DNA from: Phycisphaerae bacterium
GTDB taxonomy: Bacteria > Planctomycetota > Phycisphaerae > UBA1845
Reading direction: 5' to 3'
Assembly (NCBI GenBank): GCA_028289375.1
Contig: JANQQK010000035.1
Coordinates: forward strand, 1 to 64,000
Length of the DNA stretch: 64,000 nucleotides
Within the stretch, counting starts at the first letter, position 1, and every line of letters begins with the position of its first letter. Below are positions 31,022 through 39,639 of this stretch, one piece after another. Made by a program: the position numbers and the translations under genes. Below the pieces are notes generated by a model, which searched no databases, had not been told where the DNA came from, and saw only the letters and a list, made by a program, of their open reading frames with translations.

Positions 31022-32068
31022 TTAGGTCCAGCGGAACCAGCGGATCGCGAGAACGAAGGAAACCACGCCCCAGGCAGCGAGAATGAGGATGGGGATGCCC
31101 TGATCGAAGACGGTGGCGCCCTCGAGGATGATCGAGCGGAGGGCGTCGTTGAGCTGGGTCAGCGGCAGGGCCTTGATGAACGGCATCAGCACGTCCGGGA
31201 AGCGTTCATAGGAGAAAAACACACCCGAGCACAACCACATCGGCAGCATGACGAGGTTCATAAGGCCCGAAATCGTCTCGATTTTCTCGGCTCGGCTGGC
31301 GACGAGCAGGCCTATCCCGGCGAAGCTGAGGGCACCGATCAGCGCCATCGCGATGATGTTCAGCAGGCCTCCCTCAACCGAGACGCTGAAGACCATCCAG
31401 CCAGCCCCGAGCAAAGCGATCATCTCCGGAATGGTAAACACAAGCCGTCCACCGATCAGCGAGAGCAGAAAATCGGTCTTGCTCATCGGCGTGGCGATCA
31501 GTCGCTTGAGCAGTTTCTTGACCCGCATGTCCGTCAGGACAAACCCGCAGCCCCACAACCCGCCGCCCATCAGGTTCATGCCCAGAAGCCCGGGCACCAG
31601 AAAATCAATGTAGCGGGCGCCGGGCTTGGTGATTTCGTTGTCGGTGACGGCGATGGGATCCGTTCTGCCGCCGACGGCGCGCTGGAAGGCATCGTCAATC
31701 TTGGCACGCGCGAGCGTGCTTTCGGGCCGCGTCGGGTCGAACTGGTATTCGACGGTGCCGTCGTCGCCGGGTTTGACGATAATCGACGTCTTGCCGTAGC
31801 GGAGACGATCCGCGCAGGCGTCAGGCTCGTTGATCTGAATGTCAAACACCGTCTCGCTCTCGGAGAGCTTGGCCTTGATCGATTCGGCGGTTTCCGATGC
31901 AACGATGTCGACCGCGATCACTTCCACCGGCTTGCTGCGAAACGCGAGACCCAGCGCCAGCGTCAACAGGATCGGAAAGCCATACGTCCAGAACATCGCT
32001 TCCGGCTCGCGATAGAACGTCCGCATGCGGTAGAGAAACAGTTCCTTGAGCGGGTTATAGCGTGTCAT
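31022..32068 (-). CDS. ABC-2-type exporter permease
   Basis: A 348-residue membrane protein. An N-terminal helix (MFWTYGFPILLTLALGLAF) is followed by a large soluble loop of about 110 residues and then five helices (VPGLLGMNLMGGGLWG, IPEMIALLGAGWMVFSV, NIIAMALIGALSFAGIG, MNLVMLPMWLCSGVFF, ILILAAWGVVSFVLAI). This is the ABC-2 layout of drug, polysaccharide or lipid exporters. Its start overlaps the stop of the ATPase gene by 14 nt, so they form one unit. Substrate unknown. Confidence 0.92.
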   Translation of the reverse strand: MTRYNPLKELFLYRMRTFYREPEAMFWTYGFPILLTLALGLAFRSKPVEVIAVDIVASETAESIKAKLSESETVFDIQINEPDACADRLRYGKTSIIVKPGDDGTVEYQFDPTRPESTLARAKIDDAFQRAVGGRTDPIAVTDNEITKPGARYIDFLVPGLLGMNLMGGGLWGCGFVLTDMRVKKLLKRLIATPMSKTDFLLSLIGGRLVFTIPEMIALLGAGWMVFSVSVEGGLLNIIAMALIGALSFAGIGLLVASRAEKIETISGLMNLVMLPMWLCSGVFFSYERFPDVLMPFIKALPLTQLNDALRSIILEGATVFDQGIPILILAAWGVVSFVLAIRWFRWT

Positions 32069-33020
32069 CGAGTTCCTCAGCCGCGAGATGCCGACCGGTC
32101 AGCGTCACAAACACGTCTTCGAGGCTGACGTGACGCGTGGTGATCCGGGCCAGCGAAAGTTGGTCCGATTCAAGCTTGTTGATCAGGGCGGGCAACGCCA
32201 CGTGCGGCTCCGTCACGGTCAGGCAGTAGCCGTCGTTCTCAAACCGCGCCGTGGAGACCGCCGGCAGGGACGTAAACGCATCCGCACTGGTTTGGCCATT
32301 GGATTCCGCCAGGGCGAACTCGATGATGTGCTCGCCGCCGAGCTGGTGAATCAATTCAGACGGTGAGCCGAGGGCGATCACCTTGCCGTGATCGACGACA
32401 GCCACCCGGTCACACAATCGTTGGGCTTCGTCCATGTAATGTGTGGTCAGCAGGGTCGTGCGTGATCGCGATTTCTGCTCGCGGATGATGTCCCACAGCT
32501 CGCGGCGCGACTGCGGATCGAGACCGGTTGTCGGTTCATCGAGACACAGCAGCTCCGGATCCCCCGCCAATGCGCACGCGACGGCCAACCTCTGCTTCTG
32601 CCCGCCTGAGAGCTTTCCGACCCACGCATCCGCCTTCTCCTCGAGGGCGACCATGGCGATGACCTCGTCGGGTTCGCGTCCCTCGCGGTAAAAGCTGCGA
32701 AACAGCGTGGCTGTCTCGCGGACGGTCAGCTTCTCGTTGAGGCGGGTTTCCTGCAGGCTGATGCCGAGGCGTTGGCGGATGGCATCATCATCCTTGCCGT
32801 TCCACTGTCGGCCCAGGACTTCAACGTAGCCCGATGTTTCCTTGAGCATGCCTTCGAGGATTTCGACGGTGGTCGTCTTGCCGGCGCCGTTGGGCCCCAG
32901 CAGCCCGAAGCACTCGCCGACCTCGATTTCAAGGTTGAGGCCATTGAGCGCGTCGACCGGTTTCTTCTTCTTCGCGTCGTACCGCTTATAGAGGTCGCGA
33001 CAACTGACAGCCAATGCCAT
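32055..33020 (-). CDS. ABC transporter ATP-binding protein (ABC-2 exporter partner)
   Basis: With the start at ATG 33020 the protein has 321 residues. Walker A GLLGPNGAGKTTT, Q-loop ISLQE, signature LSGGQKQRLAVACAL, Walker B LLCLDEPTTGLDP and the H-loop TTHYMDEA are all present. The C-terminal 90 residues match the DRA-type regulatory tail of this exporter class. It energises the permease gene that overlaps its 3' end. The ClC gene lies upstream on the same strand with a 99 nt gap. Confidence 0.95.
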   Translation of the reverse strand: MALAVSCRDLYKRYDAKKKKPVDALNGLNLEIEVGECFGLLGPNGAGKTTTVEILEGMLKETSGYVEVLGRQWNGKDDDAIRQRLGISLQETRLNEKLTVRETATLFRSFYREGREPDEVIAMVALEEKADAWVGKLSGGQKQRLAVACALAGDPELLCLDEPTTGLDPQSRRELWDIIREQKSRSRTTLLTTHYMDEAQRLCDRVAVVDHGKVIALGSPSELIHQLGGEHIIEFALAESNGQTSADAFTSLPAVSTARFENDGYCLTVTEPHVALPALINKLESDQLSLARITTRHVSLEDVFVTLTGRHLAAEELDDTL

Positions 33021-33119
33021 GCTCAGTCCATCCTTGCTCGTGAAGGTGAGGCCATGCCCCGGCAGCGCCGGGATTGTAGCGGTCTGGAGGTGTCGGTCCA
33101 ACCGGCCAACCGATGTGCG

Positions 33120-35451: not shown

Positions 35452-35634
35452 ATGCTACGCATCACGCTGAGCATTGTGGTGTTCCTGCTTTGCGTTCTGG
35501 CCGTTCCGACACAGGCGTCGGGTGAACTGGGGCTGGTCCGGGCCGACCCGGTGGGCAACCTGCTGTTCCTGCCGGCGTTCGCCGTTTTGATCATGCACCA
35601 CGTGCACCATCACGGCCGACGGCGAGCGCACTGA
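35452..35634 (+). CDS. Small membrane protein with His-rich tail
   Basis: A 60-residue protein with a strong GGAGG site 8 nt before ATG 35452. A signal-type helix (LSIVVFLLCVLAVPTQA) and a second short hydrophobic segment (LLFLPAFAVLIMHH) lead to a HHVHHHGRRR tail that might bind metal. I do not recognise a family. The terminator at 35634-35656 follows directly, so it is a monocistronic unit. Confidence 0.6.
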   Translation: MLRITLSIVVFLLCVLAVPTQASGELGLVRADPVGNLLFLPAFAVLIMHHVHHHGRRRAH

Positions 35635-35656: not shown

Positions 35657-35827
35657 GACCGGGGTGAATCCCTGCGCTTCCGCTACCTCCTCAGCGTGAC
35701 CGCCGACGCTCATACCCCGAGACATACCCCGTTTTCAGTCCTGCCAAACCGACATCAACTTTCCCCCTGCCGCGACCGATAAACCCGTGTGGGCTTAATG
35801 GACGGCCCCATGATCGAGGGATGCACC

Positions 35828-36037
35828 ATGCCCGACGAACCGGGACAGATCAACGACTGCGCGCAACCTGCTGCAGAAAATGAGGATACACCTGGCCACG
35901 ACCATGCGCAAACGACCCACTCGCGTCGTGCGGTCATGGGCGGGGCGACCAGGCTGCTGGTTTACTCGGCGCCGCTGATCCAACTGTTCAGGCCCTCGGA
36001 GGCATTGGCGGCCAGTGGTGTGAGTTCCACATCATGA
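35828..36037 (+). CDS. Short Arg-Arg-signal peptide, candidate substrate of the PqqD/HprK-like cassette
   Basis: A 69-residue peptide from ATG 35828, chosen because a GAGGG site lies 7 nt upstream. The N-terminal 31 residues are polar and acidic (MPDEPGQINDCAQPAAENED). A twin-Arg motif and hydrophobic stretch follow (SRRAVMGGATRLLVYSAPLI), then FRPSEALAASGVSSTS, which ends in Ser-Ser-Thr-Ser. Its stop overlaps the next ATG by 4 nt (ATGA), so it is coupled to the PqqD-like gene. It is not a known named precursor. It may be a Tat-directed membrane peptide or a ribosomally made substrate whose C-terminal Ser is modified; this role is inferred from the neighbours only. Confidence 0.6.
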   Translation: MPDEPGQINDCAQPAAENEDTPGHDHAQTTHSRRAVMGGATRLLVYSAPLIQLFRPSEALAASGVSSTS

Positions 36038-36360
36038 TTTCGACGGTTGGTAGCCAAGTGGGTGTTCCAGTCGACGGCGCGGACCGATTTGTGCGTCGCG
36101 GTGACGTCGATGTGCACGAACTCGACGGCGAGGCAGTGCTCTATGACCTCGTCTTGAACACGACCTGTCGGCTGAATGGGACGGCTTACTTCGTTTGGCA
36201 GTGCTGCGACGGGAAGATGAGCGTGGATGACATTTGTGCGGCGATACTGAGCCGGTTCGATGTCGGCGGGGCTGTGGCCCGTCGCGACGTGCGGATGGCG
36301 GTCAGCGCGTTCTGGGAATCAGGGCTGGTCGAGCGGATGGATGATGGGGTGGTGGCGTGA
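36034..36360 (+). CDS. PqqD-like peptide chaperone (HPr-rel-A-system type)
   Basis: A 108-residue protein with the PqqD/RRE layout: a beta-strand start (FVRRGDVDVHELDGEAVLYD), then LNTTCRLNGTAYFVWQCCDG, SVDDICAAILSRFDV and a final WESGLVERM. PqqD-like domains bind leader peptides and present them to modifying enzymes. In the TIGR04353-type family they sit beside HprK-related kinases, as here. It overlaps both neighbours by 4 nt (ATGA and GTGA), suggesting coupled synthesis. The recognised peptide is probably the one encoded just upstream. Confidence 0.88.
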   Translation: MISTVGSQVGVPVDGADRFVRRGDVDVHELDGEAVLYDLVLNTTCRLNGTAYFVWQCCDGKMSVDDICAAILSRFDVGGAVARRDVRMAVSAFWESGLVERMDDGVVA

Positions 36361-37283
36361 AGACACTCTGGTCGCGGCTGGAGGATCGTCGGTTGCCGGC
36401 GGATCGGCTGGCGGCATTTGCCGAGGCTGCGGAGGTCGCGCACTTCCAAATCGGGGTGATCGGGGTTTCGCTGCATTGTCCGTATGGTCCTGCATTGCGG
36501 GATTTCTGTTCGCTGTATGACGACTGCCGGGTCGAGGTGCCGCCGCCGGATGCGATCAGGGTTGACGTGAAGCCGACGCGGCTGGGGCGGATGAAGCGTC
36601 GGCGGTACGAAGTGTGGGCGGACGACGAGCACCGGTTCACGGTGTGGAACAACCCGTCGGTGCTGCCGCACATCGAGTGGGCGATCAATTGGCACATCAT
36701 GTTGTATCAGCCCCGGTACTACCAGATTCATGCCGGCGTGGTCGAGTGTGATGGTCAGGGCGTGATCCTGCCGGCGGGTCCGGGTTGCGGAAAGACAACG
36801 CTGACGGCTGGGCTGGTGCGAAGCGGTTGGCGTTACCTGTCGGACGAGTTCGCGTTGATTGATCCTGATGATCTGCGATTGCGGGCGTACCCGAAGGCGT
36901 TGTGCGTGAAGGAAGGTTCGTTTGCGGTGCTGGACGCGATGGGACTGCGGGCTGCGCGGCGACGGGATTATCAGAAGGGGCAGAAGGGCCGCGTCACGTT
37001 TGTGAAACCGAGCGAGTTGAATCCGTCGGCGATTGGCGGGCGTTGTCCGGTTCGGTTTGTGATGTTTCCCAAGTTTGAGGCTGCCCGATCGCCGCGTGTA
37101 CGGGAGATGTCGCGGGCGGAGGCGGTGCTGCGGTTGAATGAGGTGTCGTTCAATTTCACGAAGTATCGGGCGGCGGGCGTGCAGATCATGGCGGACATTG
37201 TGCGCGAGGCGCGGGTGTTCGAGCTGGATGCGGGGCCGGTGGACGAGACGGTGGAGCTGGTGCGATCGGTGGTGCGTGGGTGA
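36357..37283 (+). CDS. HPr-kinase-related kinase (HprK-rel-A type)
   Basis: A 308-residue protein with GTG start overlapping the PqqD-like stop by 4 nt. The kinase core has a P-loop GPGCGKTT (141-148) and LSDEFALID, matching HPr kinase/phosphorylase relatives, but the usual HPr partner residues and fold context are absent. It fits the TIGR04352-like group. Related kinases in some lasso-peptide clusters phosphorylate a C-terminal Ser of the precursor; the candidate peptide here ends in Ser. The N-terminal 130 residues are family-specific. Substrate inferred, not shown. Confidence 0.87.
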   Translation: MKTLWSRLEDRRLPADRLAAFAEAAEVAHFQIGVIGVSLHCPYGPALRDFCSLYDDCRVEVPPPDAIRVDVKPTRLGRMKRRRYEVWADDEHRFTVWNNPSVLPHIEWAINWHIMLYQPRYYQIHAGVVECDGQGVILPAGPGCGKTTLTAGLVRSGWRYLSDEFALIDPDDLRLRAYPKALCVKEGSFAVLDAMGLRAARRRDYQKGQKGRVTFVKPSELNPSAIGGRCPVRFVMFPKFEAARSPRVREMSRAEAVLRLNEVSFNFTKYRAAGVQIMADIVREARVFELDAGPVDETVELVRSVVRG

Positions 37284-37312
37284 GATCGACGATCGTTCAA
37301 GGTGGGGATTCG

Positions 37313-38458
37313 ATGGAGCAGGTACTCGAATTATCGCGGATGGTGCGCGGCGATGACGCGTTTCCGGACGCGCAGGATGGTCGTCGTTGGGCGCGATTTG
37401 CCTGTATCGCCGGTCGCGAAGGCGTGGCTGGGATGTTGTGGGCAGCGGTGCGTGAGCGCGGGGTTGCGGTGCCAAACGATGCTGGCCGGGAGTTGGCGAC
37501 GGCGGCGGAGCAGGTGTCGAAGCTGAACCGATTTCGGCTGTCGCGACTTGAGCGGATTGTCGCGGCGTTTGACGAAGCCAATGTGCGGCTGGTGGCGCTG
37601 AAGGGGGCGGCGCTTTTGCGGACGTTGTATGACGACCTGTCACTTCGGCCGATGACGGACATTGATCTGTTGATTCACCCGCGGGATGCGGATCGTGCGG
37701 ACGTGGTGCTTGGTCGGTTGGGGTATGAGCCGGGGCGGAATCTGTTGCGGTCGGATTTCTATCCGCGGTTTCACTATGAGCGGGACTACGTCGGACGCGG
37801 TTCGAACGGCGTGCGACTGGATGTGCACGTGCGACCCTGGAGGCCGCTGAGATATGCCCGGACGGTTCCGGACGGGGCGATGATGCTGGATACGGTTTTA
37901 GTGCCATTGGGTGGCACCAATATGCACGTACCTTGTCCGACGAACATGGTGATTCACCTGTTGTGTCATGCGGCGTTTCATGGTGGCGGGCGACTGGTTT
38001 GGGCGGAGGATGTGCGGCGGTTTGTTGATCGGTACGAAGGAGACATTGACTGGTCGCTGCTTCTGTTGCGGCTGCGGGTTTGGCGGCTGACGTTTGCGGC
38101 GCGGGTTGGGGCGGATTGGGTGGAATCTGTTTCGGGGGAGGTGTTGCCGGAGCGTGTTCGGGAGACGCTGCGTGCGACGCGTGTATCGTGGCGGGATCGG
38201 TGGGCGGTGCTGCAGTCGCCGCATGATGCGGAGCATCCGGTTCGTCGGACGGCGGTGGACATGTTGTGCACGCCGGGGTGGCGATTCAAGCTTGGTTATC
38301 TGCACGCGGTGACGGTTCCGGATGCGGGTCATCTGGCCGAGGGCTATCGCGGGCGTCATCCAGGGTGGACGTGGTGTGCGTTGGCATCACGATGGGTGCA
38401 GAGTCCCATGCGGGCCATACTGCCGTCGGGTTCTGCTTCCACGGGGGCGGCTCGTTAG
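37313..38458 (+). CDS. Nucleotidyltransferase (PF14907-type) of the peptide cassette
   Basis: With the start at ATG 37313 (GGTGGGGA site upstream; a GTG at 37280 overlaps the kinase stop) the protein has 381 residues. The fold signature is LKGAALLRTLYDDLSLRPMT followed by DIDLLIHPRDA, with the paired Asp of the NTase active site. Such proteins occur with HprK-like kinases, and in some lasso-peptide clusters attach phosphate groups or nucleotides. The C-terminal 180 residues are unassigned (GTNMHVPCPTNMVIHLLCHAAFHGGGRL). It closes a four-gene run and is followed 11 nt later by a zinc-ribbon membrane protein gene. Confidence 0.88.
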   Translation: MEQVLELSRMVRGDDAFPDAQDGRRWARFACIAGREGVAGMLWAAVRERGVAVPNDAGRELATAAEQVSKLNRFRLSRLERIVAAFDEANVRLVALKGAALLRTLYDDLSLRPMTDIDLLIHPRDADRADVVLGRLGYEPGRNLLRSDFYPRFHYERDYVGRGSNGVRLDVHVRPWRPLRYARTVPDGAMMLDTVLVPLGGTNMHVPCPTNMVIHLLCHAAFHGGGRLVWAEDVRRFVDRYEGDIDWSLLLLRLRVWRLTFAARVGADWVESVSGEVLPERVRETLRATRVSWRDRWAVLQSPHDAEHPVRRTAVDMLCTPGWRFKLGYLHAVTVPDAGHLAEGYRGRHPGWTWCALASRWVQSPMRAILPSGSASTGAAR

Positions 38459-38469
38459 GGAATCACGTC

Positions 38470-38982
38470 ATGCAGATCTCGGACGTCACGGAGACCGCGG
38501 AAGCCGAAGGCGAGCTCGGTCGTCAGGATCAAGATCCGACGCTGCACTGTTCATGCTGTGGGTACAACCTGACGGGGCTTGTACAAGAGCGATGCCCCGA
38601 ATGTGGCGATGGGTTTGACCGGGCTGCGATGATTGAGGTGTTGCGCAACCCTCGGCCTCTTGTTCCATTCTTGACCGTTGCGTTTGCGTTGGGCAATCCT
38701 GCGTTCATTGTGTCACTTGCCACCTGGTTGTGCACGAACCATCACCAGTTTCGCATTTGGCTTTGCGCCGCGCTCGCTGCCGGACTGTGTTCGGCGATCA
38801 TTCTGTCACGTCGCATTCTGATTGGGCGTAGTGCGCGTTCCGGACGGATGAATCGTGGTGTGCGACATTATCTTGCCATTGCGGGGTTGATCATCGCCTT
38901 CTTGGTCATTGAGTTGCTCGTCGTGATTGCATCACGTTGGACATACAAGGTGGATATCTTTTCGCCACCAGTATGTCAGTGA
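38470..38982 (+). CDS. Zinc-ribbon membrane protein
   Basis: A 170-residue protein from ATG 38470. A small zinc ribbon (CSCCGYNLTGLVQERCPECG) is followed by three hydrophobic helices (LTVAFALGNPAFIVSLATWL, FRIWLCAALAAGLCSAIIL, YLAIAGLIIAFLVIELLV). The CxYxLTG...RCPECG ribbon is common in planctomycete membrane proteins of unknown role. It may belong to the cassette or simply follow it. Confidence 0.75.
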   Translation: MQISDVTETAEAEGELGRQDQDPTLHCSCCGYNLTGLVQERCPECGDGFDRAAMIEVLRNPRPLVPFLTVAFALGNPAFIVSLATWLCTNHHQFRIWLCAALAAGLCSAIILSRRILIGRSARSGRMNRGVRHYLAIAGLIIAFLVIELLVVIASRWTYKVDIFSPPVCQ

Positions 38983-39135
38983 ATCGGCTTTTCGGGGGAT
39001 GGATGATCGCCGGGGGCGCACAGAGCGCAGGAGGCTTGCCGATTCACACACTCAGGCTGCTCCGGTGGCGTTGGTAACGCCGTCGCGACGATCGACCACG
39101 ACCGGTCGTTGCGTATTCGAAACGCTGATAGCAAG

Positions 39136-39639
39136 ATGTCCTTCATGGCAGCCCGCCCTCCCACATCGACGGACGACATCACGTTCTTTTGCTTTGACTG
39201 TGATTACAACCTGACGGGGATTGAGGCGGATCGCTGTCCGGAATGCGGTGCGGAGATTGATCGCGACGCGATTCGGGCCGGGACGGACTACGCGTTGCGG
39301 GGGCTGAGCGAGTCGACGAGGGTCCTGCTGTTGAGCGTTCCGGCGCTGACGCTTGCTGTCATGCTCGGTTGCCTTGCGCTTGAATGGGAAGTTGCGGGGG
39401 CTTTTGTGGGCGCGATGCTCATGTTGATGCTGCCTTATGGCCTTGTTGCGGCTTACTATGTGGCTTGGCGGATGCGGATTCGTCGCCACGCGCAGGCTGG
39501 CGTGAATCCGTACGCACAGCGTGGTCGGGTGCGATTCGCTCTGGACTTTTTCGTGGCGATCGCCGTTCAGGCAAGCATTATGATGCTCGTGGTCATTATC
39601 GTAGCGGTTGTGGCTTCTGAGTTTGCACGTCGTGTATGA
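39136..39639 (+). CDS. Zinc-ribbon membrane protein, paralogue of the 38470 gene
   Basis: A 167-residue protein from ATG 39136. The ribbon (CFDCDYNLTGIEADRCPECG) is followed by helices (LLLSVPALTLAVMLGCLAL, VAGAFVGAMLMLMLPYGLVA, FFVAIAVQASIMMLVVII). It is related to the protein at 38470 by ribbon and topology, suggesting a local duplication. Function unknown. Confidence 0.72.
   Translation: MSFMAARPPTSTDDITFFCFDCDYNLTGIEADRCPECGAEIDRDAIRAGTDYALRGLSESTRVLLLSVPALTLAVMLGCLALEWEVAGAFVGAMLMLMLPYGLVAAYYVAWRMRIRRHAQAGVNPYAQRGRVRFALDFFVAIAVQASIMMLVVIIVAVVASEFARRV

Follow-up and report, generated by a model that had tools for sequence, protein, structure and literature searches.

The closest described counterpart of the locus analysed here is LPP (linear polyphosphorylated peptides), a cyclase-free RiPP family of Bacillota composed of an RRE, an HprK-like kinase and an NTP-transferase (Popov et al. 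2026, PMC13381572). The LPP precursor contains Tyr at position -16, Pro at -13 and Val at -11, is cut after residue -1 by a SpI-like peptidase, and has a core starting with AQSN, in which Ser3 is phosphorylated. The kinase LppK adds one to four phosphates to this core Ser3 (AQSNWK), the linear precursor being presented by LppB; in the crystal structure of the LppB-leader complex (9X8Z), Asp70 is in contact with Tyr of the leader, whose kink at Pro is held by Asn33. LPP loci were also found in capsule loci (PMC13381572). Comparable enzymes tailor lasso peptides: PsmK converts the C-terminal Ser of pseudomycoidin to phosphoserine, to which PsmN attaches hexoses (PMC9266682). In NCBIfam the kinase/PqqD pair is named the "HPr-rel-A system" (TIGR04352/TIGR04353), and the precursor peptides are covered by no family of this database. 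HprK-related and PqqD-related proteins also occur together in the SynChlorMet cassette (ScmC/ScmD), which has radical SAM enzymes and to which the genes described here show only weak profile matches.

The planctomycete cassette resembles LPP in four respects: (i) it has a discrete PqqD-like RRE, an HprK-like kinase and an NTP transferase, with no cyclase; (ii) the leader carries a YxxPx[V/I] motif at -16/-13/-11, with the same spacing from Tyr to the cleavage site; (iii) a Ser is present at core position +2/+3 (AGSN in many Cys-type cores versus AQSN of LPP); and (iv) the loci are often located near glycosyltransferase genes. It differs in its Tat-like leader, which ends with AxA and lacks the HQxIxFET sequence, in its cores, which are either short and Ser-ended or knottin-like and accompanied by a VKOR-DsbA partner, and in its distribution, which is near-universal in one family of another phylum, whereas that of LPP is patchy. 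No SpI-like LppS was found beside the window genes or among the recurrent neighbours of the relatives that were read, and no MsbA-like LppD is encoded in the operon; in a neighbourhood that was partly annotated, an opposite-strand ABC pair (31022-33101) is not MsbA-like by eye. The cassette would work like LPP but is not filed here as LPP, because neither the FET leader end nor an adjacent LppS was found and because LPP has been described as restricted to Bacillota (PMC13381572).

Organization of the operon

The window, i.e., the whole 64,000-nucleotide stretch of DNA analysed, contains an operon of four tightly packed genes, which encode a peptide of 69 aa, an RRE of the PqqD type, an HprK-like kinase and a nucleotidyltransferase (NTase) of family PF14907 (Table 1). 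Reading of the DNA and profile searches confirmed these genes and their positions as given by an earlier, sequence-only reading, together with the 4-nt overlaps of peptide and PqqD genes (ATGA, 36034) and of PqqD and kinase genes (GTGA, 36357), and the 29-nt distance between the kinase stop codon and the ATG (37313) of the NTase gene. The 4-nt peptide/PqqD overlap is also present in several relatives, and the gene order peptide-PqqD-kinase-NTase is kept in the short-core loci (see below).

Table 1. Features of the operon and of the precursor gene (positions in the window).
Feature	Coordinates	Strand	Basis or remark
Shine-Dalgarno-like GAGGG	35816..35820	+	sequence; 7 nt 5' of precursor ATG 35828
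Precursor gene, 69 aa; leader 1-61, proposed core 62-69 (ASGVSSTS)	35828..36037	+	
Ser-Arg-Arg twin-arginine (Tat-like) motif	35921..35929	+	RR present throughout an alignment of 31 leaders
YSAPLI, predicted RRE recognition motif (Y -16, P -13, I -11)	35963..35980	+	PMC13381572, PMC12710340
Ala-Leu-Ala, predicted signal-peptidase-like leader cleavage site	36002..36010	+	A(-1) in 57/61 relatives
Core ASGVSSTS, with Ser core +2 and the C-terminal Ser as candidate phospho-acceptors	36011..36034	+	
PqqD-family RRE, 108 aa	36034..36360	+	PF05402; LppB 9x8z; Foldseek
HprK-related kinase (HPr-rel-A type), 308 aa, GTG start	36357..37283	+	
Kinase P-loop GPGCGKTT	36777..36800	+	
PF14907 nucleotidyltransferase-fold protein, 381 aa; KG...DxD motif, D116/D118	37313..38458	+	

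The PqqD and NTase proteins match their Pfam profiles (PF05402, 54 bits, and PF14907, 162 bits, respectively), and the peptide has no significant match in the Pfam or NCBIfam families. The kinase scores 178 bits (E 2e-52) with the NCBIfam profile HprK_rel_A (TIGR04352) and the operon has the same kinase-NTase order with PqqD as the HPr-rel-A system; it differs in that the kinase score lies below the 200-bit cut-off and PqqD matches TIGR04353 weakly.

Three residues or motifs of the kinase, namely His125, G145-K146 (P-loop) and Asp163, align with the His, P-loop and Asp of HPr kinase structures and are invariant in 27 relatives, including HprK-related kinases of Vibrio and Sphingomonas. The NTase model (pLDDT 78) has a nucleotidyltransferase fold (MenT1, ANT(2'')) and also shows a likeness to FKRP, a ribitol phosphate transferase that uses CDP-ribitol as donor. 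The proposal that kinase and NTase are of the lasso-tailoring kind is supported.

Just 5' of the operon (35452-35634) there is a short, putatively coding ORF, whose N-terminus resembles a signal sequence and whose end is rich in His (HHVHHHGRRRAH), and on the other side two adjacent genes (38471-38982 and 39109-39639), probably tandem paralogues, encode small membrane proteins with a zinc-ribbon N-terminus (CxxCxYNLTG...CPECG).

The precursor peptide and its leader

The corresponding peptide of a congeneric relative (L038/L035) is HSRRAVMGGATKLLVYSAPLIHLFRPSEALAASGVSATS. Compared over 40 codons, starting with HSRR and ending at the stop codon, its gene and that of the window differ by 18 silent changes and 3 residue changes (R/K, Q/H and S/A), and 17 of the 21 base changes in this C-terminal part of the precursor fall at codon position 3. 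As judged from this comparison, the precursor is a true gene under purifying selection. A chance ORF was ruled out by the leader profile matches across the family and by the silent codon changes.

The twin-Arg stretch and Ser/Thr tail noted earlier are present; on closer definition they form a complete Tat-like signal ending with ALA and an 8-residue core. The peptide has the features of a Tat substrate (S/T-RR, a hydrophobic stretch and AxA), and the genome encodes TatC and signal peptidase I, an S26 peptidase gene being located on a different contig. We infer from the leader sequence that the precursor is exported and that the leader is removed at AxA; the good conservation of this site suggests cleavage. 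An exported product of 8 residues would be very small, and the peptide could alternatively be an uncleaved membrane anchor.

Probable leader recognition by the PqqD protein

The spacing within the leader was analysed in 61 non-redundant peptides, aligned gap-free from the first residue of Y/F-x-x-P. Counting from Y/F, the invariant Pro is residue 4 (position -13) in all 61 peptides and the Ala of AxA is residue 16 (position -1) in 57 of them. The distance from RR to P varies from 15 to 23, in contrast to the fixed distance from Y/FxxP to AxA, which equals that between the RRE motif and the cleavage site in the LPP of Bacillota.

Among PDB sequences, that of LppB (9X8Z; E 0.0027) matches the window PqqD protein best. 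The residue aligned to LppB Asn33 is Asn in 45 of 50 relatives, and that aligned to Asp70 is Asp in 13/19 Tyr-leader loci and 0/14 Phe-leader loci (Fisher p 5e-5, a value that ignores shared ancestry); in five Tyr-leader RREs His stands in place of this Asp. The PqqD protein is thus most likely an RRE binding Y/F-x-x-P of the leader, as far as these alignments indicate.

In a Foldseek search with the AlphaFold model of the PqqD protein (pLDDT 79), the closest structures were the lasso B1-leader complexes TbiB1 and TfuB1. An RRE, an HprK-like kinase and an NTase homologue are shared with the paeninodin and pseudomycoidin pathways (PadeK, PsmK and PsmN; PMC9266682), where the RRE binds the leader, the kinase acts on the C-terminal Ser and the NTase homologue decorates the phosphate, and the operon could accordingly be read as part of a lasso-peptide pathway with its cyclase and protease genes in another part of the genome. 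However, the planctomycete core is linear and much shorter or Cys-rich, cores of 5-8 residues or with six Cys not being lasso cores, and the leader ends with AxA, lacking the lasso Thr at -2. The lasso leader peptidase (B2, PF13471) is represented in the organism's own genome by just one sub-cut-off match, which contains stops, and no Asn-synthetase-like macrolactam cyclase was found among the ORFs beside the operon; the absence of lasso genes noted earlier was upheld in this respect. A lasso pathway was rejected on the basis of the PF13471 search, and we regard it as highly improbable. The related suggestion that the pathway appears different stands as to the missing lasso protease, but a precedent exists in LPP (PMC13381572) and in the NCBIfam HPr-rel-A system.

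Two types of core and a putative disulfide-forming partner

Two core types were distinguished. The cores of the window type (18 loci) comprise 5-9 residues and are rich in Ser (e.g., ASGVSSTS, ASPSS, ASHVSS and SNHSS), and 15 of 16 intact distinct short cores end with Ser. The Cys-type comprises 44 distinct peptides, whose core often starts with AGSNHSC or a similar sequence. A six-Cys pattern, C-C-CC-C-C, most commonly with gaps of 6, 5, 4 and 4, occurs in 39 of these 44 cores and corresponds to the knottin spacing C-x-C-x-CC-x-C-x-C. Their matches to the Pfam knottin/ICK families were all below the cut-off, the negative profile results of three trimmed peptides with placeholder N-termini being set aside. 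By their Cys spacing, the Cys-type cores are candidate knottin-like peptides.

Of 18 Cys-type loci, 16 have a gene for a VKOR-DsbA fusion in their vicinity, and of 18 short-core loci none, counts that ignore ancestry, the short-core loci forming one or two clades in the tree. This association is consistent with disulfide formation outside the cytoplasm, and hence with export.

A Ser is present within the first six core residues of all 61 peptides; a constant Ser lies near the new N-terminus, mostly at core +3 in the Cys-type and at +2 in the window type. The sequence-only reading referred to modification of a peptide end by relatives of these enzymes in lasso-peptide clusters. The C-terminal Ser is still a candidate, but most relatives are Cys-rich and share with LPP the constant Ser at +2/+3. 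In the core of the window the acceptor could be either Ser +2 or the C-terminal Ser, each of which has a precedent. By analogy with the systems described above, the precursor would be phosphorylated at such a site and the NTase would act on the product.

In many Cys-type loci (about 18) genes for GT2 and GT4 glycosyltransferases lie 3' of the NTase gene (in L082 at +2222 and +3320 from the kinase gene).

Distribution of the cassette

Of the 51 genomes that represent the planctomycete family, many of them fragmented assemblies, 47 have the leader (RR, Y/FxxP, AxA), 47 the kinase and 47 the NTase; among the 30 good genomes the number is 28 for each. G035 (94% complete) and G044 (98% complete) lack all three. 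Two genomes have the kinase without the leader (G006 and G027) and two the leader without the kinase (G007 and G041), all four being fragmented assemblies. Enzymes kept beside a missing peptide, which the sequence-only reading had named as evidence against the link, were seen locally in some loci; these genomes (e.g., G021, G026 and G036) encode the peptide elsewhere. G021 has a tandem array of five genes encoding six-Cys leader peptides (L147, G021:C1, 5394-7995), separated from its kinase locus by some 330 kb.

A profile built from the aligned leaders, in which R-R and P are invariant, matched 66 places in the 51 family genomes, nearly all beside the kinase gene or representing extra copies (the E-values for this short leader come from one-genome searches). 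Such a small number of kinase-linked matches or extra copies indicates that the leader is not a generic Tat signal, which was rejected as the whole explanation.

Beyond the family the kinase is rare: in a phylum sample of 294 genomes, 16, the organism's own among them, gave a match at E 1e-15, with 2 above the cut-off. In other planctomycete families (L110:6940-7842 (-), L107:1309-1614 and L109:6-326 (-)) the gene order PqqD-kinase-peptide(-NTase) occurs, with leaders that contain RRKLLKLxVYxxPAI or a similar sequence and peptides with GLS or SLS at the C-terminus; in L110 a Cys-rich domain (CGTACSKCC) precedes the peptide in a fusion protein. The proteobacterial comparison covered plasmid records, and in plasmids of Vibrio alfacsensis and Sphingomonas parapaucimobilis (L115:6641-7453 and L116:6987-7472) an RR-leader "hypothetical protein" is encoded directly 5' of the HPr-rel-A genes. 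These proteins are candidate substrates of the orphan HPr-rel-A system, for which an RR-leader substrate may therefore be general.

Natural fusions of the peptide with the kinase or the PqqD domain

In five loci (L070, L080, L084, L085 and L088) the reading frame of the kinase runs on into the peptide. No ATG, GTG or TTG occurs in the 75 codons preceding the leader in L084; an internal ATG is present in L080, L085 and L088, so a separate peptide start is possible there. The fusion-type kinases group together in the tree (support 87/60). Members of this clade have no NTase gene 3' of the kinase gene, and several have a large gene instead. In three further loci (L066, L150 and L163) a PqqD domain is placed ahead of the leader and core, with no start codon between the domain and the leader in L066. 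The RR motif is retained in the fusion proteins, too, in which the signal has an internal position; this is atypical of a Tat signal and counts against the export reading.

The link between peptide and enzymes, which earlier depended on gene coupling only, is now supported by synteny, co-loss, natural fusions and leader-RRE covariation, which identify the peptide as the partner of the PqqD protein and the kinase. The same evidence bears on a rival view, in which the peptide is a small protein of a common kind, exported through Tat/Sec or anchored in the membrane, the kinase and NTase have another substrate, and the operon reflects co-regulation. The resemblance of the leader to a complete Tat signal, the presence of TatC and signal peptidase genes, and the association with VKOR-DsbA, which suggests that Cys-type peptides end up outside, would agree with it. 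The direct fusions of the peptide with kinase and PqqD, their co-loss, the fixed spacing from Y/FxxP to AxA and the covariation of the leader with the RRE pocket speak against it, and we consider it quite unlikely.

Proposed pathway and significance

The explanation that we favour, and consider probable, is a RiPP-type pathway working like LPP, with a leader of dual use. In this pathway (i) the PqqD RRE would bind Y/F-x-x-P in the leader and present the peptide to the HprK-like kinase; (ii) the kinase would phosphorylate a core Ser (core +2/+3 or the C-terminal Ser); (iii) the NTase-fold protein would then add a hexose, nucleotide or sugar-phosphate to the Ser phosphate; (iv) the leader would double as a twin-arginine export signal, removed at AxA; and (v) in the six-Cys relatives the exported core would be oxidised by the neighbouring VKOR-DsbA. 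A leader serving as an export signal would make a dedicated protease and exporter of the LppS/LppD type dispensable.

A different fate of the peptide was also considered, in which it would remain uncleaved as a membrane-anchored carrier whose Ser receives a phosphate and then a glycan, serving as an anchor or primer of a surface polysaccharide. The glycosyltransferase genes that follow the NTase gene in many Cys-type loci and the occurrence of LPP in capsule loci (PMC13381572) fit such a carrier, as do the FKRP-like NTase model, the hexosylation of phosphoserine by PsmN and the near-universality of the cassette, which suggests a structural role. The window operon has no adjacent glycosyltransferase genes, however, and the well-kept AxA site suggests cleavage; we judge the carrier unlikely, and the LPP-like pathway with an exported core remains our preferred explanation.

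Within the open-licence literature no paper on this system in Planctomycetota was found. The new elements are its occurrence in another phylum, its near-universality in one family, an RRE-binding Tat-like leader and two core types. Cyclase-free kinase/NTase RiPPs are thereby extended from Bacillota to Planctomycetota, the orphan HPr-rel-A kinases gain a candidate substrate, the natural enzyme-substrate fusions are suited to structural work, and the Cys-type peptides form a candidate bacterial knottin-like family with its own disulfide oxidase. We tentatively propose, with slightly more doubt than confidence, an undescribed RiPP class in which a single leader acts as both RRE element and Tat signal, for family-wide export of phospho- or phosphoglyco-peptides, including cystine-knot-like ones, that would be a core surface component, not a sporadic antibiotic. 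A near-universal family trait argues for a housekeeping or envelope role, and together with the frequent downstream glycosyltransferase genes it suggests that the peptides of this planctomycete family probably function at the cell surface or in the envelope.
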